Under the pieces are notes generated by a model. That model did no database searches and was not told the DNA's origin. It saw nothing but the letters and a program-made list of their open reading frames with translations. Below, piece after piece: positions 553 to 15,946 of a stretch of 64,000 bases of DNA (its first letter is position 1; every line of letters starts with the position of its first letter). Location: positions 310,001 through 374,000 of the forward strand of contig NC_012029.1 of assembly GCF_000022205.1 (NCBI RefSeq). The letters run 5' to 3'. This stretch comes from Halorubrum lacusprofundi ATCC 49239. GTDB lineage: Archaea > Halobacteriota > Halobacteria > Halobacteriales > Haloferacaceae. Both the position numbers and the translations under genes were made by a program.

Positions 553-1950
553 ATGCAGCTATTTTGGCACCGACGCGATCCGCGCACCCGGGACAACGTC
601 GGACTCGCGGCGGCCGCACGGACGGGGACCGTCGTCCCCGTCTTCGTCTACGACACCGACCTGTTCGGGACGATGGGTGCACGCCAGCGGGCCTTCTTCC
701 TCCGACACGTAAAGCGACTGAAGGAGCGCTACCGAGAGTTCGGAAGCGACCTCGTCGTCCGCGCGGGCGACCCGGAGAAGGTCCTCGTCGATCTCGCCGA
801 CGAGTACGACGCGGAGGCGGTCTTCTACAACGAGTACTACCGTCCCGCGAGGCGGAACCGCCAGCGGGCCGTCGAGGGGGCGCTCGAGGGCTTCGGTGTC
901 GAAACGAATGCACGGACCGATGCCGTGTTAGTCGATCCCGGCCGGCTGGAGGAGCGCTACGCGAATCACGGTCGATTTCACGATGAGTGGGAGACCGTCC
1001 CTAAGCCCGAGCCGTCCCCGGAACCAGACGCGGACGCGCTCGTGAACATGCGCGACGAAAAAACGGTCTCTGAGATTGACCCCGACATCGACCCCGACAT
1101 CGACCTGCCGGCGACCGGCTACCGGGCCGCACGCGAGCGGTTCGACGGCTTCCTCGAACACGGAATCCGGTCGTACGCCGACACGCGCGACGACCTTGCC
1201 CGGGCCGTCGAGGCGCCGACGCACGCGGTCTCGCGAATGTCGCCGTACCTCGCAACGGGGGCGATCGGGATCCGGGAGATGTGGGCGGACGCGACCGACG
1301 CGTTCGAGGCGGCGACGGGCGACGAGCGCCGCAACGTCGACAAGTACCGCGACGAGCTGTCGTGGCGCGAGCAGATGTACCACCTGCTGTACTACACCCC
1401 CGATCTGGCCGTCGCGAACTACAAATCGTTCCCGAACGAGATCGCGTGGCGCGAGGACGACACGGCGTTCGAGGCGTGGACGCGCGGCGAGACCGGCTAC
1501 CCGCTCGTCGACGCCGGGATGCGCCAGCTGAACGCGGAGGGGTACGTCCACAACCGCCCGCGACAGGTGGTCGCGAGCTTTCTCACGAAACACCTCCTGA
1601 TCGACTGGCGGCGCGGGGCGCGCTACTTCACCACACAGCTGATCGACCACGACCACGCCTCGAACCACGGCGCGTGGCAGTGGACCGCCTCCACCGGCAC
1701 CGATTCGGTGGATGTGCGCATCTTCGATCCGGTGGCACAGATGGCGAAGTACGACGCTGACGCGACGTTTGTGAAAGAATACGTCCCCGAACTGCGAGAC
1801 GTGCCCGCCGAGGAGATAGTCGACTGGCCGACTCTCTCGCGGGTCGAGCGCGAGACGCTGGCGCCGGAGTACCCGCATCCGATCGTCGACCGGAACGAGG
1901 GGTACGAGCGGGCGCAGCGGGTGTTCGAGGAAGCGCTCGGGAAGCGGTGA
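553..1950 (+). CDS. phr: deoxyribodipyrimidine photolyase (cryptochrome/photolyase family)
   Basis: The 465-residue protein belongs to the FAD-dependent photolyase/cryptochrome family, which repairs UV-induced cyclobutane dimers with blue light. The N-terminal Rossmann antenna domain begins MQLFWHRRDPRTRDN. The FAD-binding C-terminal half contains the motifs SWREQMYHLLYY, LVDAGMRQLNAEGYVHNRPR and the HASNHGAWQWTASTGTD segment, all typical of CPD photolyases. The ATG at 553 is preferred over an upstream in-frame ATG at 454 because the upstream 33 residues are arginine-rich, unlike the family, and the family starts exactly at this motif. The length is normal. It stands alone, 62 bases before threonine ammonia-lyase. 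It could be a photosensory cryptochrome, but CPD repair is more likely. Confidence 0.92.
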   Translation: MQLFWHRRDPRTRDNVGLAAAARTGTVVPVFVYDTDLFGTMGARQRAFFLRHVKRLKERYREFGSDLVVRAGDPEKVLVDLADEYDAEAVFYNEYYRPARRNRQRAVEGALEGFGVETNARTDAVLVDPGRLEERYANHGRFHDEWETVPKPEPSPEPDADALVNMRDEKTVSEIDPDIDPDIDLPATGYRAARERFDGFLEHGIRSYADTRDDLARAVEAPTHAVSRMSPYLATGAIGIREMWADATDAFEAATGDERRNVDKYRDELSWREQMYHLLYYTPDLAVANYKSFPNEIAWREDDTAFEAWTRGETGYPLVDAGMRQLNAEGYVHNRPRQVVASFLTKHLLIDWRRGARYFTTQLIDHDHASNHGAWQWTASTGTDSVDVRIFDPVAQMAKYDADATFVKEYVPELRDVPAEEIVDWPTLSRVERETLAPEYPHPIVDRNEGYERAQRVFEEALGKR

Positions 1951-2012
1951 AACCGATCCGACTCCGTTCCGCAACCGAGTCCTTTTCTGGGATCCCCGAG
2001 AACACCGCGCTC

Positions 2013-3275
2013 ATGTCCTCCGTCACGATCGCGGACGTCGAGGCCGCCGCGGCCCGGCTCGAACCGGCGGCGATCGTCCAGCGCACGCCCGTCGAGCGCA
2101 GCCGGTCGCTGAGCGAGCGGTGCGGCGCCGACGTGCGCCTGAAGATGGAACACCTCCAGCGCACCGGCTCGTTTAAAACGCGCGGTGCGTATAACGCGAT
2201 CTCGCGGGCAGTTGAGCAGGCGGCGGAACGAGCCGATGAGTCCGAGCTCGACCGGGTCGTGGCCGCGAGCGCGGGCAACCACGCGCAGGGGGTCGCCCTG
2301 GCGGCGTCGGGCACCGGGATCGACGCGACGATCGTGATGCCGGAGTCGGCGCCGGCAGCGAAGATCGAGGCGACCCGCGGGTACGGCGCCGAGGTCGTGC
2401 TCCGCGGGAGCGCGTTCCCGGAGGCGATGGCGCACGCGCAGACGCTGATCGACGACCCCGGAACGCGGTTCGTCCACGCGTTCGACGATCCGGACGTGGT
2501 CGCCGGGCAGGGAACGCTCGGGCTGGAGGTGCTCGACCAAGTGCCAGACGTGGACACCGTGCTCGTCCCGGTCGGGGGCGGCGGGCTGGCAGGCGGGGTC
2601 GCGACCGCGATCAAAGCGCGCTCGCCCGAGACGCGGGTGATCGGGGTCCAGACCGAGGGCGCCTCGACGCTCTCGGAGAGCCTCGCGGCCGGCGAACTCG
2701 TGACGCGCGAGGAGCCGGACACCATCGCGGACGGGATCGCGACCGGCGGGCTGAGCGAGCTCACCTTCGGCCTGTTGAAAGAGCACCTCGACGACGTGGT
2801 CGTCGTGAGCGACGACGACGTGGCCGCCGCGATTCTGCTCCTCTTGGAGCGCGCGAAACAGATGATCGAGGGCGCGGGCGCGACCGCGGCGGCCACCCTT
2901 TTAAATGACGACGCTCTCGACGAGCTCGATCTGGCCGGCGAGACGGTGGTGCCGCTGCTCTGTGGCGGCAACATCGACGTCACGACGCTGAAGGAGGTGG
3001 TGACGCACGCCCTCGTGGAACGTGACCAACTGATCGAACTTGCCGTCCGGATCGACGACACGCCCGGGACGATGGGCGAGATATCCACCCTGATCGGCGC
3101 GGAGCGCGCGAACATCCGGACGGTGCGCCACGAGCGCAGCCGGCCGGACCTGCCGGTCGGCGACGCCGACCTCGTGTTCGAGGTGGAGACCAACGGGCCG
3201 GCCCACGTCGATCGGGTCCTGAAGGCGGTGCGCGAGGCGGGCTACGAGGTGGAGTGGACGACGCAGGAAGGGTGA
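2013..3275 (+). CDS. ilvA: threonine ammonia-lyase (threonine dehydratase), ACT-domain type
   Basis: The 420-residue fold-type II PLP enzyme converts threonine to 2-oxobutanoate plus ammonia, the first step of isoleucine synthesis. Visible motifs are TGSFKTRGAYNA with the Schiff-base lysine (about residue 54), SAGNHAQGVA (substrate loop) and the glycine-rich PLP-phosphate loop VGGGGLAGG. The last 80 residues, from about ELAVRIDDTPGTMGEIS, form an ACT domain, so allosteric control by an amino acid is likely. An in-frame ATG at 1947 overlaps the photolyase stop and adds a non-conserved 22-residue leader; ATG 2013 fits the family. A second paralogue lies at 59667-60878. Serine dehydratase activity is also possible. 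Confidence 0.88.
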   Translation: MSSVTIADVEAAAARLEPAAIVQRTPVERSRSLSERCGADVRLKMEHLQRTGSFKTRGAYNAISRAVEQAAERADESELDRVVAASAGNHAQGVALAASGTGIDATIVMPESAPAAKIEATRGYGAEVVLRGSAFPEAMAHAQTLIDDPGTRFVHAFDDPDVVAGQGTLGLEVLDQVPDVDTVLVPVGGGGLAGGVATAIKARSPETRVIGVQTEGASTLSESLAAGELVTREEPDTIADGIATGGLSELTFGLLKEHLDDVVVVSDDDVAAAILLLLERAKQMIEGAGATAAATLLNDDALDELDLAGETVVPLLCGGNIDVTTLKEVVTHALVERDQLIELAVRIDDTPGTMGEISTLIGAERANIRTVRHERSRPDLPVGDADLVFEVETNGPAHVDRVLKAVREAGYEVEWTTQEG

Positions 3276-3290
3276 GGAACGGCGTCGTTG

Positions 3291-3622
3291 ACTTATAACT
3301 GAACTGCGGTGGCGTGAGGCTGCGAGCGCCCATCGGCGCGAGCAGCCCGCACGAGGGAGTCGGTCCGGCGCTTATAAGCGCCGGACCGACGAGGCTGGGG
3401 AGGCGTGAGGCTGCGGTTGCGGTCGGGTGGGACTCAAAGGGGCAGCCGCGAGGACGACGCTCGACGACGCAAGCACTGGAAGGAGCGAACGAAGTGAGCG
3501 ACTGAAGCGCACAGCGAGTCGCGTGAGTCCTCGTGGCTGGGGCTTTGGAGGCCTTGACCGACGGATCGAGGTCAGATACTTATAAGCGAGCGGCTGGGGA
3601 TTTGGAAGTGTTCGCTGTGCCG
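3291..3622 (-). repeat. composite intergenic repeat, copy A (inverted orientation)
   Basis: Read on the minus strand, this stretch carries the same ordered modules as copies B-D: two CCAAAGCCCCAG-type blocks (one near 3530-3553, a diverged one near 3591-3612), an arginine-codon-like block near 3450-3530, CCCTTTGAGTCCCACC (about 3423-3442), CTCACGCCTCCCCAGCC (about 3391-3411), a perfect 32-base palindrome at 3359-3390 centred on TTATAA, and a terminal TTATAA box at 3291-3300. It lies between ilvA and the HTH-membrane gene. No coding frame within it looks real. Confidence 0.8.
3359..3390. repeat. 32-base perfect palindrome inside repeat copy A
   Basis: The two 11-base arms (GTCGGTCCGGC and its complement) flank the centre GCTTATAAGC with no mismatch. 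The same slot in copy C has different arms but the same centre. Confidence 0.9.
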
Positions 3623-3748
3623 TCGTTGGCCATATATAACCAGACAATTCGTAATTTAGCGGGGTACCCAATCGATCCAGTCAACTACTATTCTCGGCCA
3701 TATTCTTTTGTAGAAAATACTATCAAGGAAAAGTGAATTATCGCAAAT

Positions 3749-4129
3749 ATGGGTAATAGTTCCAAAACGGATCTGCAACGAGACATTCTCCTCACGTGGT
3801 GGGAAAGTCCGAATGCAACAAATCAGGAGATTGCGGGCGCGTGTGACTGTTCGTCATCCTATGTCAGCCAGACCAAAAATCGGTTCGACGATTACAACGA
3901 GTTCGAGGCGATGATGGACAGACAGGACGCCGAGTTAGAGCAGATGTTCGGTGAGAACATATTCGAAAACAGCGGGACGACATCGGCGACAGTAGAGTCG
4001 GAAGGGCCCGGAATTGCAGAGCAATGGAACGAGATCCCGAACAACATCCCGGGACTGCTGATCAAGCACATTGTCGTGATGGTACTTGGATACGCAGCGA
4101 TCCAAGTCGGGATAACGCTCTTTCTCTGA
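3749..4129 (+). CDS. HTH protein with C-terminal membrane anchor, in an AT-rich islet
   Basis: The 126-residue product has an N-terminal helix-turn-helix (about residues 8-50, motif ATNQEIAGACDCSSSYVSQ), an acidic linker, and one C-terminal hydrophobic helix (about residues 104-125, HIVVMVLGYAAIQVGITLF). This suggests a membrane-tethered DNA-binding protein. Base composition is clearly lower in GC than its neighbours, with codons such as AAA, AAT, ATA and TTA that are rare elsewhere in the window, and the 120 bases upstream are very AT-rich, consistent with recent acquisition (virus or plasmid origin is inference). I do not recognise a named family. The ATG at 3749 is the first in frame after the stop-rich AT tract. 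Confidence 0.7.
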   Translation: MGNSSKTDLQRDILLTWWESPNATNQEIAGACDCSSSYVSQTKNRFDDYNEFEAMMDRQDAELEQMFGENIFENSGTTSATVESEGPGIAEQWNEIPNNIPGLLIKHIVVMVLGYAAIQVGITLFL

Positions 4130-4186
4130 TTTCTTCTGAGATACAACACAGGATAACGGACAGCTTCAGTCTACTCGATCCGACGG

Positions 4187-4193
4187 TTTAAAA
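4187..4193 (+). promoter_or_regulatory. TATA box of cysS
   Basis: TTTAAAA is centred 29 bases before the cysS ATG at 4219, indicating a leaderless or nearly leaderless message. A GGAGGT at 4202-4207 sits 12 bases before the ATG but would fall upstream of the predicted transcription start. Confidence 0.55.
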
Positions 4194-4218: not shown

Positions 4219-5712
4219 ATGAGTCTCGTCGTTACCGACACCCTGGCAGACGAGCGCGTCGAGTTCACGGCCGACGGCGACGTCACGCTGTACGTCTGCG
4301 GCCTGACGGTGTCGGACGACCCCCACCTCGGACACGCCCGCCTGTGGTTCCACGCCGATGTCCTCCACCGCTGGCTCGACCACGTCGGCTACGACGTGCG
4401 CCACGTCGAGAACGTCACCGACGTCAACGAGAAGATCACGGCCCGCATCGGCGAGCGCGACGCGTGGACCGACGAGCGCGACGTGGCCGAGACGTTCACC
4501 GCGACCACCTTCGACGCGATGCGCGGGCTAAACCTGTTGCGCGCCGAGGTGTACCCCCGCGTCACCGAGCACGTCCCGGAGATCGTCGACCTCGTCGAGA
4601 CGCTGATCGAGAAGGGGTACGCCTACGAGTCGAACGGCTCCGTCTACTTCGACGTGACCGCGTTCGACGACTACGGGAAGCTCTCGAACCAGAACGTCCA
4701 AGACCTCGAAGCGCAGGGCGAGCCCGACGAGCGGTCGGAGAAGCGCAACCCGTCGGACTTCGCGCTGTGGAAGGCCGACGGCGTGAGCGAGACCGCCGCG
4801 CGCGAACACGCGAAGCACGACCACGGTGACGAGACCCCCTCTGGCGAAATCTGGAACTCCCCGTGGAGCGAAGGGCGACCCGGATGGCACGTCGAGTGCT
4901 CGGCGATGTCGACGACGCATCTCGGCGACACGCTCGATATCCATATGGGTGGACGCGATCTGGTCTTCCCGCACCACGAAAACGAGATCGCACAGTCGGA
5001 GGCGGCCACCGGCGAGACGTTCGCGCGCCACTGGCTCCACGTCGGCCTGCTCGCGATGGAGGGCGAGAAGATGTCCTCCTCGATCGGCAACTTCTGGACC
5101 GTACCGGACGCCCTCGACGAACTCGGCGTCAACGTGATCCGCACCTTCTACGCCGGGGCGGCTTACCGCTCCGAGCAGGCGCTCACCGAGGAGACGATCG
5201 CGGAGGCCGAGGAGCGCTGGGAGCGGCTCTCGCGCACCTACGACCGCGCCGTCGAGGCGCTCGACTCCACCGAGGCCCGCGCGAAGGCCGAGGACGAGGA
5301 GCTTCGCGGGGCCGTCGAAACCGCTCGTGACGACCTCGCGACCGCGATGAACGACGACCTGAACCTCCGGGAGGCGACCGCGGCGCTGCTGGATCTCACT
5401 GACGCGGTGAACCGGCACGTGGACGACGTGGAGGATGGCGATACCGAGTCCGCCTACGACTACCGCGGCCTCCGCGAGGCGGTCGAGGCGTTCGAAAACC
5501 TCGCTGGCGACGTGTTGGGCCTCCAGTTCGAGTCGACGACCGACGGCGACGTGGATCTGGCCGGCGAGCTGGTCGACCTCGTTCTGGACGTGCGCGAGGC
5601 CGAACGCGAGGCCGGCAACTACGAGCGCGCCGACGAACTCCGGGACGCGCTCCGTGAGGTCGGCGTCGAGATCGAGGACGGGCCGGACGGGGCGACGTAC
5701 CGGTTTGAGTAG
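4219..5712 (+). CDS. cysS: cysteine--tRNA ligase
   Basis: The 497-residue class I aminoacyl-tRNA synthetase charges tRNA-Cys. Visible are the zinc-binding Cys near the N-terminus (LYVCGLTVSDDPHLGHAR, with the HIGH-like PHLGH), the WHVECSAMS and HMGGRDLVFPHHENEIAQ zinc/substrate motifs, and the class I signature KMSSSIGNF (about residue 281). The C-terminal helical DALR-like tRNA-binding region follows and carries acidic haloadaptation. Length and motif order match the family. The N-terminus is slightly shorter than bacterial CysRS, as in other haloarchaea. It is monocistronic, followed by repeat copy B. Confidence 0.97.
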   Translation: MSLVVTDTLADERVEFTADGDVTLYVCGLTVSDDPHLGHARLWFHADVLHRWLDHVGYDVRHVENVTDVNEKITARIGERDAWTDERDVAETFTATTFDAMRGLNLLRAEVYPRVTEHVPEIVDLVETLIEKGYAYESNGSVYFDVTAFDDYGKLSNQNVQDLEAQGEPDERSEKRNPSDFALWKADGVSETAAREHAKHDHGDETPSGEIWNSPWSEGRPGWHVECSAMSTTHLGDTLDIHMGGRDLVFPHHENEIAQSEAATGETFARHWLHVGLLAMEGEKMSSSIGNFWTVPDALDELGVNVIRTFYAGAAYRSEQALTEETIAEAEERWERLSRTYDRAVEALDSTEARAKAEDEELRGAVETARDDLATAMNDDLNLREATAALLDLTDAVNRHVDDVEDGDTESAYDYRGLREAVEAFENLAGDVLGLQFESTTDGDVDLAGELVDLVLDVREAEREAGNYERADELRDALREVGVEIEDGPDGATYRFE

Positions 5713-5789
5713 CGTGCATACTCGGGTTCTGTTGGGAGCAGCGTTCTCGATCTCGGGGGACTGCGACGTAGTCGGTTCTGATGAGACGG

Positions 5790-6070
5790 TCGATCGCTTA
5801 TAAGTAGTTGACGACGACTCGGTGAACGCCGCCGAAGCCCCAGCCGGGAGGCGGGCCCTTTGAGTCCCACCCGCACCGCACAGCACCACTGGAAGACGGT
5901 CACGCGATTTCACCGCGTGAGCAAGCAAGACCTCCGGTCTCGCCCTGTTCCTGCTTGCGTCGTTACGCGGGCTGCGACTTCCGTGCACCCGCTCGTTGCA
6001 TCGCCGTCGACCTCGCACGCGCTCGTCGTGACCGCTTATAAGCGGCCACTCGGAGGCACGCGCCACCGCG
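5790..6070 (+). repeat. composite intergenic repeat, copy B
   Basis: Starting at a CTTATAAG box (5797-5804), it carries a diverged CCGAAGCCCCAGCCG block (5832-5846), CCCTTTGAGTCCCACC (5856-5871) with CGCACCGCACAGC, a copy-specific insert of about 130 bases, then CTCGCACGCGCTCGTCG and the palindromic core CCGCTTATAAGCGG (6032-6045), ending in GGCACGCGCCACCGC. It fills the gap between the converging cysS and dolichol kinase genes. No supported reading frame is present. Confidence 0.75.
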
Positions 6071-6092
6071 GTTCGGTTTTTCTATGGTCCTC

Positions 6093-13090: not shown

Positions 13091-13246
13091 TACGCGAATG
13101 TGGGCCGGGCGGCCCTTTATCCGTTCGGTCCGCGGCGATCCCCCGACACAACCTTTATCGCCGCATCGCTCTAGATGTCGGTAACGACGGCCGCGGCGCA
13201 CCGCCGCCGCGGCGACCCCGCTGCCGACCGAACGCGGTCTTCCCCC

Positions 13247-15379
13247 ATGAGCATCGACATCGACCCGCTGTCCGACGCGGCCGGGCTCACCGTCACGGAC
13301 CACATCGAGAACACGCAGTTCGAGGTGTACACCGACCGACCGGTCGAGCCGGCCGCGAGCCCCGAGGACGCCCACTACTTCCCGGTCGACGCGAGCGTGA
13401 CCGTCGAGACCGGGGCCATCGAGATCCCTCGCGTCGCTGTTGTCGAGACCCGCTGCGGCGACGGCACGCTGCTCACCCGCGGCGACTCCTACGCGATGCC
13501 CGCGGGGACGTACCACGTCGGGATCGACCCCGCCCCGACGAAGCTGTACCTCGCGTTCGCGTCGCCGTTCTCCGTGTCGACGACGGAGCGGACGACCCGG
13601 ATCGACCTCGACGCCCCCGCAGAGGTCACGCTCGGGTTCCGGTCGCTCCACCAAGTTCCCGCAGGGACGATCGAGACCCCGACCGACCCCGAGTCGCTGA
13701 TGGACGCCGTGTCGCTACTCGGCTCCGCTCTCCAGACGACGAGCCCGGAGCGGTCGTTCCCCACCCTTCGCGGGCACCCACCGCTGATCGAGCCGGGCGA
13801 GGAGTTCCGCGTCCCCGACCGAGTCGAACCGGTCGACTCCGGCATTCGGATCGTCGTCCCTCCGGAGTACCGCTACCTCTACCCGGTGGTCTCGCTCGCG
13901 TACTACTTCGCCGCCGACGTGGTCCCCGGCGATCCTCCCCGGATCGAGGGCGACGGCTGGACGCACCCTTTGGAGCCCGACTTCGAACGGCGGACCGGTG
14001 AGGTGCTCCGACAGGCGTTCCACTTTGACTGTCTCGCGCGCACGGAGGGGTTCTACCCGGTCGATCTCCACGAGCGCGAGACCACCGACCTCGACCTCGA
14101 CTGGGGCCGGTTGTACGACCTCCCGCTGGCGGAGCGACTCGGCGAGTACCTCGCGGTTCCGTTCGAGCGCGTCGAGCCGGAGCTTCCCCAGTGGACATTA
14201 ACGACCGACGTGCGCCCCGACCCCGAGAACGTGGAGCTGCTCCCGTTCGTCGCCGGCGAGCTGTCGATCGTCCGGTCTCCGGAGACGGTGACCCCCGCGA
14301 TGGCCAGTGGGGGCGATGGGCTCGGGTTCTTCCGCGCTCCGCGTGCCGACACGGCGTCGCTCGATCGAGACGAGTTCGTTCGGAGTACCGCCGGGACCGA
14401 ACCTACTCGCGGCGCCGACGCCTCGGCGGACCGCGGCGCGGTGGCGGCCGACACCGACTTCGTGCGACCCGAACCCGTCGACACGGTCGAGCACGCGTGG
14501 GTCGGCGCCGGCGTCCCGCTCGACGCCAACAAGGCCACCCTCGACGCGTACCACCGGCGACTGGAGGCCGGCGCGGTCGAGCAGTCGCGAATCTCCGTGC
14601 TCGTCGTCTGTAACGACGAGCAGATGCGCGAGGAGGGCGAGGTCGCGGACTTATACGGCCTCCGCGACATGGTCCAGTTCGACATCGAAGTGCGCCACGA
14701 CCTCACCCGCGAGGAGATGCGCGAGACGCTCCAGTCCGACGTCGACTTCCTCCACTACATCGGCCACGTCGACGACCGCGGAATGCAGTGTACCGACGAC
14801 TACCTCGATCTCACGGCCGAGGACCTCGACGTCGGCGTCAGCGCCTTCCTGCTCAACGCCTGCCAATCATACCAGCAGGGCGAGGCCTTGGTCCACCGCG
14901 GCTCCCGCGGCGGCATCGTCACCCTCTCCGACGTGGCGAACTCGCCGGCGACCCAGCTCGGCCGGATCATCGCTCGCCTGATGAACAGTGGGTTCAACCT
15001 TCGTGCCGCGCTTTACGTCGCGAAGCGAGAGCTGATCACCGGCCACCAGTACATCGTCGTCGGCGACGGCGGGACGACGATCTGTCATAGTCGGAGTGGA
15101 ATCGCACTTGTTCTCAATTTGGGTATAAATGAGTCCAATAGCTGGGATCTGGTCGCTGAGGGCTACCCCAACGGTCCGTATGGCGTCGGAACTATGAGTA
15201 ACTTAAACCTAGAAAAAGATGAATGTGAGCACGTTATTCCCTTTCAGATACACATATCAGATATAAAAATGGAAGAAATTGACTATTTCCTTGATCTCGA
15301 AAATACTCCGATCTTCTTTAATGACGACTTAATTTGGAACGACGAGCCTGCGCGACTCAGGGCCCTGCAACAGAGGTAG
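13247..15379 (+). CDS. CHAT-domain (caspase-like) protein with AT-rich C-terminus
   Basis: The 710-residue protein has a long N-terminal region of unknown function (residues 1-400) and a CHAT peptidase domain around residues 420-610. The catalytic dyad is visible: FLHYIGHVDDRG (His507) and FLLNACQSYQQG (Cys539), followed by RGGIVTLSDVANSPA. CHAT peptidases are clan CD cysteine proteases related to caspases. From about base 15085 (residue 613) the sequence changes abruptly to AT-rich codons through to the stop, unlike the GC-rich body. A TATA-like CTTTAT at 13153-13158 would start transcription near 13181, so ATG 13247 is preferred over ATG 13175. The last 23 bases overlap a convergent 43-residue gene. 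Substrate unknown. Confidence 0.82.
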   Translation: MSIDIDPLSDAAGLTVTDHIENTQFEVYTDRPVEPAASPEDAHYFPVDASVTVETGAIEIPRVAVVETRCGDGTLLTRGDSYAMPAGTYHVGIDPAPTKLYLAFASPFSVSTTERTTRIDLDAPAEVTLGFRSLHQVPAGTIETPTDPESLMDAVSLLGSALQTTSPERSFPTLRGHPPLIEPGEEFRVPDRVEPVDSGIRIVVPPEYRYLYPVVSLAYYFAADVVPGDPPRIEGDGWTHPLEPDFERRTGEVLRQAFHFDCLARTEGFYPVDLHERETTDLDLDWGRLYDLPLAERLGEYLAVPFERVEPELPQWTLTTDVRPDPENVELLPFVAGELSIVRSPETVTPAMASGGDGLGFFRAPRADTASLDRDEFVRSTAGTEPTRGADASADRGAVAADTDFVRPEPVDTVEHAWVGAGVPLDANKATLDAYHRRLEAGAVEQSRISVLVVCNDEQMREEGEVADLYGLRDMVQFDIEVRHDLTREEMRETLQSDVDFLHYIGHVDDRGMQCTDDYLDLTAEDLDVGVSAFLLNACQSYQQGEALVHRGSRGGIVTLSDVANSPATQLGRIIARLMNSGFNLRAALYVAKRELITGHQYIVVGDGGTTICHSRSGIALVLNLGINESNSWDLVAEGYPNGPYGVGTMSNLNLEKDECEHVIPFQIHISDIKMEEIDYFLDLENTPIFFNDDLIWNDEPARLRALQQR

Positions 15380-15488
15380 CTTGGTTCGCCGCCGCGGGCG
15401 CCGCCTGCGTCAGCAGGAGAAGCGCGGTGAACAGGACGCCGGCCATCTTGGGGTGCTCTGCCACGTAGTCTGCAACACTTTCGTGCAT
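15357..15488 (-). CDS. 43-residue single-helix membrane protein (DUF7503-like)
   Basis: This short gene is read on the minus strand from ATG 15488: MHESVADYVAEHPKMAGVLF, then a hydrophobic segment TALLLLTQAAPAAA and the tail NQATSVAGP before TGA. The pattern of acidic/amphipathic start, KMAGVLFTALLLLTQA helix and GP end fits my recollection of small haloarchaeal proteins grouped as DUF7503. A TATTAA element (minus-strand TTAATA) at 15510-15515 lies about 24 bases before the ATG, so the gene has its own leaderless promoter. Its 3' end overlaps the CHAT gene by 23 bases on the opposite strand. Function unknown; a partner, substrate or target of the CHAT protease is a hypothesis. Confidence 0.72.
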   Translation of the reverse strand: MHESVADYVAEHPKMAGVLFTALLLLTQAAPAAANQATSVAGP

Positions 15489-15509
15489 ATTACACAGAAT
15501 ATCGCGTGA

Positions 15510-15515
15510 TATTAA
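15510..15515 (-). promoter_or_regulatory. TATA box of the 43-residue membrane protein gene
   Basis: On the minus strand the AT-rich block reads TTAATA, centred about 24 bases before ATG 15488, in an otherwise AT-rich interval (15489-15590). Confidence 0.45.
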
Positions 15516-15697
15516 CATCAAAGCCGTTTTGCGACAACTGTTTTTAGATATTTAAATGCTTAAAAATAGTAAATTAATTGGCCGTCACCCAACGCCTTCC
15601 TGCTCGATCGCTTCGTCACCCCGACGGCGAGCGTCGCGAATCCGGTCTTGGGGCTCCGCCCCACCGTTTTTTCCGCCTCCCCGACGGAGGTAGGGTC

Positions 15698-15946
15698 ATG
15701 ATTGACATCGACGCGACGCTCCGTGACGCGTTCGAGCACACCGACTACGACCTCGGCGACGTCGCCGTCAACCGGAAGCAGGTCCGGGTACCGGTGCTCC
15801 AGCAGGGTGCCGACCCCGACGCGCTCACCGCGGTGATCGAAGAGGCGCTCGGCGCGGACGCGGTCGTCGCCGCGACCGTCACCACCGAGGCCATCGACGG
15901 CGAGGACACCATCGGCACCGTCGTCTCGTTCCGGTACCAGCCGTGA
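15698..15946 (+). CDS. small conserved protein of unknown function
   Basis: The 82-residue acidic protein begins MIDIDATLRDAFEHTDYDLG and ends GTVVSFRYQP. It looks like a soluble alpha/beta domain with no cysteines and no membrane segment. I do not recognise a named family. The ATG at 15698 is chosen because the in-frame extension upstream (from 15578) is proline/arginine-rich and overlaps AT-rich non-coding sequence. ACGGAGGTAGGGTC before the start contains GGAGGT about 9 bases upstream, a good ribosome-binding site, so this message probably has a leader. The next gene on the same strand starts 84 bases later. Confidence 0.65.
   Translation: MIDIDATLRDAFEHTDYDLGDVAVNRKQVRVPVLQQGADPDALTAVIEEALGADAVVAATVTTEAIDGEDTIGTVVSFRYQP

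Follow-up and report, generated by a model that had tools for sequence, protein, structure and literature searches.

A predicted tail-anchored helix-turn-helix protein encoded in an AT-rich islet upstream of cysS in Halorubrum lacusprofundi

Directly upstream of cysS on the main chromosome of Halorubrum lacusprofundi lies a conserved single-copy gene whose product is, as judged from its sequence, a helix-turn-helix (HTH) protein with a predicted and conserved C-terminal membrane anchor. We regard it, at a probability of roughly 0.55, as a minimal membrane-tethered one-component transcription regulator. A literature search among open-licence papers returned no description of this family; the family is thus undescribed in the literature found, but the combination of an HTH with a membrane helix is a design that is already known.

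The gene and its AT-rich islet

The window, i.e. the whole stretch of 64,000 nucleotides that was analysed, is located on the main chromosome (contig C2, 2.7 of 3.7 Mb). The gene begins with an ATG and is flanked by ilvA (1947-3275) and cysS (4219-5712), both names being readings of the sequence (Table 1). The first-pass annotation had described the gene and its upstream region as low in GC, and this is confirmed: the islet at 3615-4170 has a GC content of 0.478, whereas all 556-base stretches in the window average 0.678 (sd 0.040), which corresponds to a z of about -5; the value is 0.40 in the 150 bases upstream of the gene and 0.516 in the gene itself. Such a composition is not unique, as 34 of the 556-base stretches that do not overlap the islet, at about 14775-15814, are equal to or lower than it (minimum 0.477). 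A 734-aa ORF (13175-15379) has its 3′ end in this second AT-rich region, which also takes in the bases that follow.

Table 1. Features of the islet and its surroundings (positions in the window).
Feature	Position	Strand	Basis
Tail-anchored HTH protein gene	3749..4129	+	ORF of 126 aa; dN/dS 0.07-0.27 in 21 pairs
HTH domain (residues 7-46), which includes the invariant C32-x-C34-S-x-S-Y-V-S	3767..3886	+	Predicted structure, alignment, HTH models
Helix, residues 49-68, possibly for dimerisation	3893..3952	+	Predicted structure; conserved
Variable linker, residues 69-96, predicted disordered	3953..4036	+	pLDDT < 50 for residues 65-100; lowest conservation
Juxtamembrane signature P-[ND]-N-x2-G, residues 97-102	4037..4054	+	20-member alignment
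Predicted C-terminal membrane helix, residues 103-126, the protein's end; polar Q119 (4103-4105)	4055..4126	+	Hydropathy, model, alignment
AT-rich upstream region, likely with its own promoter	3616..3748	+	GC 0.40 in 150 bases upstream; alignment of 7 orthologues
Box CAACTACTATTC, which may be an operator or activator site	3682..3693	+	Alignment of orthologous upstream regions
GTAGAAAATACTATCA, interpreted as BRE/TATA (leaderless mRNA)	3710..3725	+	23 bases from its end to the ATG
cysS promoter-like GATCCGACGGTTTAAAA	4177..4193	+	Kept in filled and empty sites with small variations
Repeat copy A, chromosomal intergenic repeat, neighbour outside the islet	3290..3615	+	57 matching pieces on C2; 20/44 gene-less sites

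Protein anatomy

The predicted architecture, a DNA-binding domain with a membrane helix at the C-terminus, also found support. On the N-terminal side, HTH models match all 20 aligned members of the family at E <= 1 (best 8e-8), with the Lrp/AsnC- and MarR-type models PF13404, PF01047 and PF13412 matching 14, 20 and 19 of the 20, respectively; on the C-terminal side, the last 19 residues have a hydropathy of 2.3 and fall within a modelled helix. The window protein alone reaches 17.4 bits against Pfam HTH_23 (E 0.004), which is under the gathering cut-off of 24.6. Its Pfam matches are limited to the HTH part, no NCBIfam or PADLOC model matches it, and a Pfam scan of the 20 members gave no named full-length family among the matches listed (the matched stretches being displayed for the first member). 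The nearest solved folds are HTH domains of the Lrp/AsnC type, although the best of them (E 0.18, probability 0.99) is not significant by E, and a sequence search for solved relatives gave a single chance match (E 1.6).

An AlphaFold2 model built from seven sequences, weak overall (mean pLDDT 58.3, pTM 0.37), places helices at residues 4-19, 25-32 and 36-45, i.e. a three-helix HTH, followed by helices at 49-68 and 100-125. The pLDDT is 76-79 over residues 11-40 of the HTH, and confidence is low over helix 100-125. The model contains no strands, so that no wing is predicted.

Conservation across the 20-member alignment, ten rows of which come from one genus, differs between these segments: the mean majority fraction is 0.86 in the HTH, 0.78 in the following helix, 0.49 in the linker and 0.58 in the juxtamembrane segment and membrane helix together. 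Within the anchor, which unlike the linker is conserved, single positions stand out, namely P97 (19/20), N or D at 98, N99 and G102 (18/20 each), K or R at 106 (17/20) and Y115 (18/20). Position 119, inside an otherwise mostly hydrophobic helix, is polar (Q, E or R) in every member of the alignment. Two proteins from outside it, in genomes G452 and G428, carry P-D-N-x2-G, R and Y-x3-E in the corresponding positions and are polar at 119 as well; they were found with the profile of the 20-member alignment and are not fully independent, but bring the polar residue to all 22 members looked at.

C32 and C34 of the HTH are likewise invariant in 20/20 members, the C-x-C lying at 3842-3850 of the window. 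Cysteines are scarce in halophile proteins, and a redox or metal role of this pair is therefore possible.

Conservation in the genus and history of the ilvA-cysS site

Of 52 genomes of the genus, 11 match the window protein at E <= 0.001, ten of them over the full length and one (G025) in the HTH only. In seven genomes (H. lacusprofundi itself, G021, G027, G032, G036, G045 and G050) the gene stands directly upstream of cysS and co-directional with it, the six other in-place orthologues being 79-86% identical to the window protein. G001 and G033 have a 62-65% homologue about 3 kb upstream of ilvA, and a further homologue in G013 lies on another contig, with neighbours in common with G001 that include an apparent DNA polymerase II large subunit. 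Values of dN/dS between 0.07 and 0.27 in all 21 pairs of in-place orthologues indicate a real gene under purifying selection.

Homologues of normal composition in the same place across the genus would have spoken against the islet reading of the first-pass annotation, yet at the 51 cysS loci all seven in-place copies are AT-rich: their GC is 0.52-0.57, with a GC3 of 0.65-0.76 as compared with 0.92-0.96 in cysS of the same genomes. The homologues of the G001 group lie below even this (0.43-0.44). Low GC is not a property of the whole family, as the members in G286 and G309 reach 0.68 and 0.60, respectively.

cysS could be located in 51 of the 52 genomes, and at 44 of these loci the HTH gene is missing from this place, with G001, G013 and G033 carrying a copy elsewhere. 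Silent divergence among the seven in-place orthologues rises to about 1 and is above that of cysS in 19 of the 21 pairs, a comparison that is rough because the two genes differ in composition. A recent foreign insertion is rejected on these values, which mark the islet as old rather than as a recent arrival. The two pairs below cysS are G032-G045 (0.11 vs 0.23), for which the lower value suggests exchange, and G045-G050 (0.32 vs 0.35). Over all 21 pairs, the silent divergence of the HTH gene tracks that of cysS loosely (Spearman 0.31, p 0.17).

How the gene came to be present at some sites and missing from others was approached on a cysS tree, on which its presence needs about five to six changes; 112 of 500 label shuffles are as low, so that the clustering is no better than shuffled. 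The tree is weakly resolved, with 32 of 48 inner branches weak, and its starred branches force only two changes. In addition, 16 of the 44 gene-less loci, picked by eye, were aligned and proved to have in common a related stretch of about 75 bases before the cysS promoter, which the carriers lack wholly or partly. Simple deletion of the islet is accordingly not favoured as the origin of the empty sites and, on what is a loose alignment, recombination swapping filled and empty alleles appears likelier. Gene transfer and recombination are described as frequent in Halobacteria (PMC3990103).

The same gap has accepted other genes. In G003 it holds a different AT-rich gene (locus L098) for a protein of 201 aa with several hydrophobic stretches and no Pfam match above the cut-off, and in G001 and G033 a high-GC gene, so the site tolerates small inserts and may serve single genes as a small docking site. 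In G027 (contig C15; loci L118 and L119), ilvA is found about 50 kb from cysS and inverted, the islet having stayed with cysS, which puts one end of this rearrangement, as read from the sequence, between ilvA and the islet.

The islet had further been noted to lie directly against repeat copy A. The contact is real, but the repeat is present at so many gene-less sites that it must be considered coincidental: a piece of at least 140 bases precedes cysS at 20 of the 44 loci without the HTH gene, while the 899 bases preceding cysS in the carrier G027 yielded no match to repeat A. Its presence at many sites without the gene also rules out repeat A as the vehicle of the islet. The repeat is about 325 bases long, contains TTATAAG palindromes and has at least 57 matching pieces, every one of which lies on contig C2 (of 150 candidate places, 40 were scored); a region behind cysS (5783-6078) shows inverted similarity to it. 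No recombinase gene and no direct repeat were seen at the islet edges. The islet is bracketed by an inverted pair (3557-3570 and 4174-4187; 14 bases, 93%), the left arm of which lies inside repeat A and the right arm at the cysS promoter that empty sites have too. With 22 such pairs in 3 kb, it is taken as a chance occurrence.

Upstream region and promoters

The regions upstream of the seven in-place orthologues preserve a core, TAGAA-x-A-x-A-x-TATCA, which is invariant in all of them and lies within GTAGAAAATACTATCA in the window. Between the end of GTAGAAAATACTATCA and the ATG lie 23 bases, the spacing of a TATA region in leaderless transcripts. Further upstream, the box CAACTACTATTC has a [CT]TACTAT[TC]C-like core in six of the seven regions and is degenerate in G021. 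The islet therefore probably carries its own promoter, and autoregulation of the putative HTH regulator is possible. In its own genome, the TAGAA-x-A-x-A-x-TATCA pattern has one exact copy, which is the one upstream of the HTH gene itself, and four other sites when two mismatches are permitted (a reversed control pattern gave none), so that no regulon is evident.

The promoter-like stretch before cysS, GATCCGACG[AG]TTTAAAA, is preserved, apart from small variations, whether a site is filled or empty. This indicates that transcription of cysS has not been taken over by the islet.

The wider family and its neighbourhoods

At the level of the order, matches at E 0.001 occur in 32 of 392 genomes; 17 are nearly full-length and 15 are confined to the N-terminal part. 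The 20-row profile at E <= 1e-20 finds full-length members in 13 of 170 genomes of the host's own taxonomic family and in 7 of 125 genomes of a second one, always one per genome; the second family adds three profile matches to the HTH only. Of six named loci with a match, five are from Halorubrum and the sixth is from a Halobacteriales MAG.

No constant partner gene was seen in the neighbourhoods of members across lineages. The copy on plasmid pHTUR05, labelled a winged HTH domain protein in RefSeq, follows a gene for an Mrr-type restriction endonuclease and is near an integrase; a contig of G290 that carries a member has genes in common with pHTUR05, again with an integrase and a helix-hairpin-helix protein nearby. 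Elsewhere the neighbours, named by eye, include copA-like and lysyl-tRNA synthetase-like genes among others, and in G201 the member is flanked by an acetyltransferase-like gene on one side and a DUF402 gene on the other, an order repeated in G452.

More distant relatives keep the HTH and differ at the C-terminus, which consists of other membrane helices or is basic without a membrane-spanning stretch. The latter is the case at loci L063, L064, L065 and L131, where the basic stretch takes the place of the membrane helix and is perhaps a peripheral membrane anchor. By sequence, a membrane-spanning anchor is hence not universal in the wider HTH group, as these four relatives do without it. Two distant HTH-membrane relatives (L066, 5734-6168, and L067, 1999-2340) are divergent from genes that by eye are Orc1/Cdc6-like AAA+ genes; both stretches hold an integrase-like gene too, L067 in addition an MCM gene, and they may represent a replicon-linked branch. 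The H. lacusprofundi genome itself encodes a weak HTH relative (E 0.0012) of 180 aa with three hydrophobic stretches (L052, 5977-6519; about 1373700 on C2).

The first-pass annotation had also raised haloviruses and plasmids as places to look for homologues, an idea that is not supported for the viruses and is borne out once for the plasmids. Phage records held no relative of the window protein (one chance match at E 5), IMG/VR gave no confirmed relative, and a viral fold search reached a best E of 0.026; a viral origin is ruled against by the absence of relatives in phage records and IMG/VR. The plasmid search with the window protein yielded one homologue, and this homologue as query had pHTUR05 as its only match among plasmids. 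With a distant HTH-membrane relative as query, phages again gave chance matches (E 0.6-1), and plasmids gave pHTUR05 and an annotated endonuclease.

Comparison with known systems

The architecture as such is not the rarity it had been supposed to be. A 2023 survey of transmembrane transcription regulators (TTRs) puts their number at 1,384 in 367 of 404 archaeal species, or about four to an archaeal genome, approximately 56% of all such regulators having a single membrane pass and approximately 57% no other recognisable domain; very few of the predicted membrane-bound regulators are stated to have been validated experimentally (PMC10269533). On sequence grounds, the window protein fits the definition given there, a predicted DNA-binding domain together with one or more predicted membrane helices, and it shares the single pass and the lack of a further recognisable domain (PMC10269533). 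It departs from these regulators in ending inside the membrane with no outside domain, in having an anchor signature of its own and in being encoded on a single-gene AT-rich islet that is sporadically inherited.

ArnR and ArnR1 of Sulfolobus acidocaldarius are likewise archaeal proteins with an N-terminal HTH and a C-terminal membrane anchor; however, ArnR has a putative HAMP domain, a sensory domain and two membrane helices (PMC6396743), none of which the window protein, with its one helix, appears to possess. Between its HTH and anchor no Pfam match to a HAMP or sensory domain was found, a 20-residue helix and the variable linker taking that place, and the protein is, by its predicted domains, outside the ArnR group. 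Lrp/AsnC- and MarR-type regulators (PF13404, PF01047, PF13412) share the HTH fold, whereas the window protein has no match to a ligand-binding domain, no predicted wing and an anchor as its C-terminus.

Protein p16.7 of phage phi29 has its membrane anchor at the opposite end from that of the window protein. It too is a DNA-binding membrane protein (PMC4974454), with no relation to the window protein shown, and it differs in having a role in replication. R4 of the pL6-family plasmids, which is likewise haloarchaeal, has a membrane domain at its C-terminus and was seen in a membrane fraction (PMC11431627), but none of the five plasmid records matched by the window protein is pL6-sized.

Possible modes of action

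As a membrane-tethered one-component regulator, the protein would have a cytoplasmic N terminus and dimerise via helix 49-68 and via the membrane helix, where Y115 and the polar residue 119 would take part. Thanks to the linker of about 28 residues, the HTH would be able to contact nucleoid DNA without the protein leaving the membrane. The membrane helix would read a signal borne by the membrane, be it the state of the lipids or a partner protein, and DNA binding would change in response. An archaeal precedent is offered by ArnR and ArnR1, which bind the flaB promoter as full-length proteins (PMC6396743). The gene would travel as a single AT-rich islet, probably together with its promoter. Since it has no constant neighbour, the regulator would probably act on itself and on genes elsewhere rather than on cysS. 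A more specific proposal builds on the fact that the anchor ends at the last residue, leaving no outside domain: the sensor would be one membrane helix, such that the tail anchor itself reads the membrane, with the P-[ND]-N-x2-G hinge and polar residue 119 acting as an intramembrane switch by which the dimer state of the HTH is set. This part we put forward tentatively, as less likely than not.

The same anchor could instead be a substrate. Site-2-type proteases favour helix breakers near the inner end of a membrane helix, and a latent factor whose HTH domain is freed by intramembrane proteolysis to act in the cytoplasm, as the first-pass annotation had suggested, would agree with the probable N-in/C-out topology, with the helix breakers N98, N99 and G102 (and P101 in 10/20 members) at that end, and with the lack of an outside domain in need of prior trimming. 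Proteolytic release is nevertheless rather unlikely: the TTR survey has such regulators acting from the membrane and mentions proteolysis as something inhibited by partner proteins (PMC10269533), and ArnR and ArnR1 are reported solely in the membrane fraction when produced in E. coli (PMC6396743). Quite unlikely, too, is a cargo gene protecting against mobile elements or viruses, in the manner of a moron-like repressor or an exclusion protein. Its sporadic occurrence as a single AT-rich gene, the Mrr-type endonuclease gene ahead of the pHTUR05 copy and the other AT-rich membrane-protein gene in the gap of G003 speak for such a role, which fits poorly with virus collections (phage records and IMG/VR) that hold no relative, with PADLOC results that are nil for the window protein and weak both for one homologue (E 0.006 at best) and for the protein from G003 (E 0.042), and with the absence of any recognised defence gene from the other neighbours that were tested (ten proteins against Pfam, four against PADLOC).

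A tether between the membrane and a replicon or chromosome region, with a logic comparable to that of phi29 p16.7, would account for the members on pHTUR05 and the related G290 contig, close to an integrase and a helix-hairpin-helix protein, and for the distant relatives that, in our reading of the sequence, diverge from Orc1/Cdc6-like genes. It is likewise quite unlikely, given that other close members lie beside apparent housekeeping genes (mostly by eye) and that full-length members are missing from more than 90% of the genomes searched in the two taxonomic families, where the protein is thus dispensable for segregation. As for a local regulator of cysS or ilvA, to which the position of all seven in-place orthologues directly upstream of cysS might point, the preserved cysS promoter-like stretch, the 44 of 51 cysS loci that manage without the gene and the placement of the family beside other genes elsewhere make it very improbable indeed. 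The preferred reading hence remains the membrane-tethered one-component regulator.

Significance

The main point of interest is a conserved polar residue in a tail anchor without an outside domain. If the proposed intramembrane switch is true, the protein would rank with the smallest kinds of membrane-sensing transcription regulator and would represent a membrane sensor that has spread through the haloarchaea as a single-gene AT-rich islet. With about 126 residues, a sharp anchor signature, a single intramembrane polar residue, presence and absence at the same site and named Halorubrum strains at hand, it is well suited to testing if a tail anchor can sense and signal on its own.
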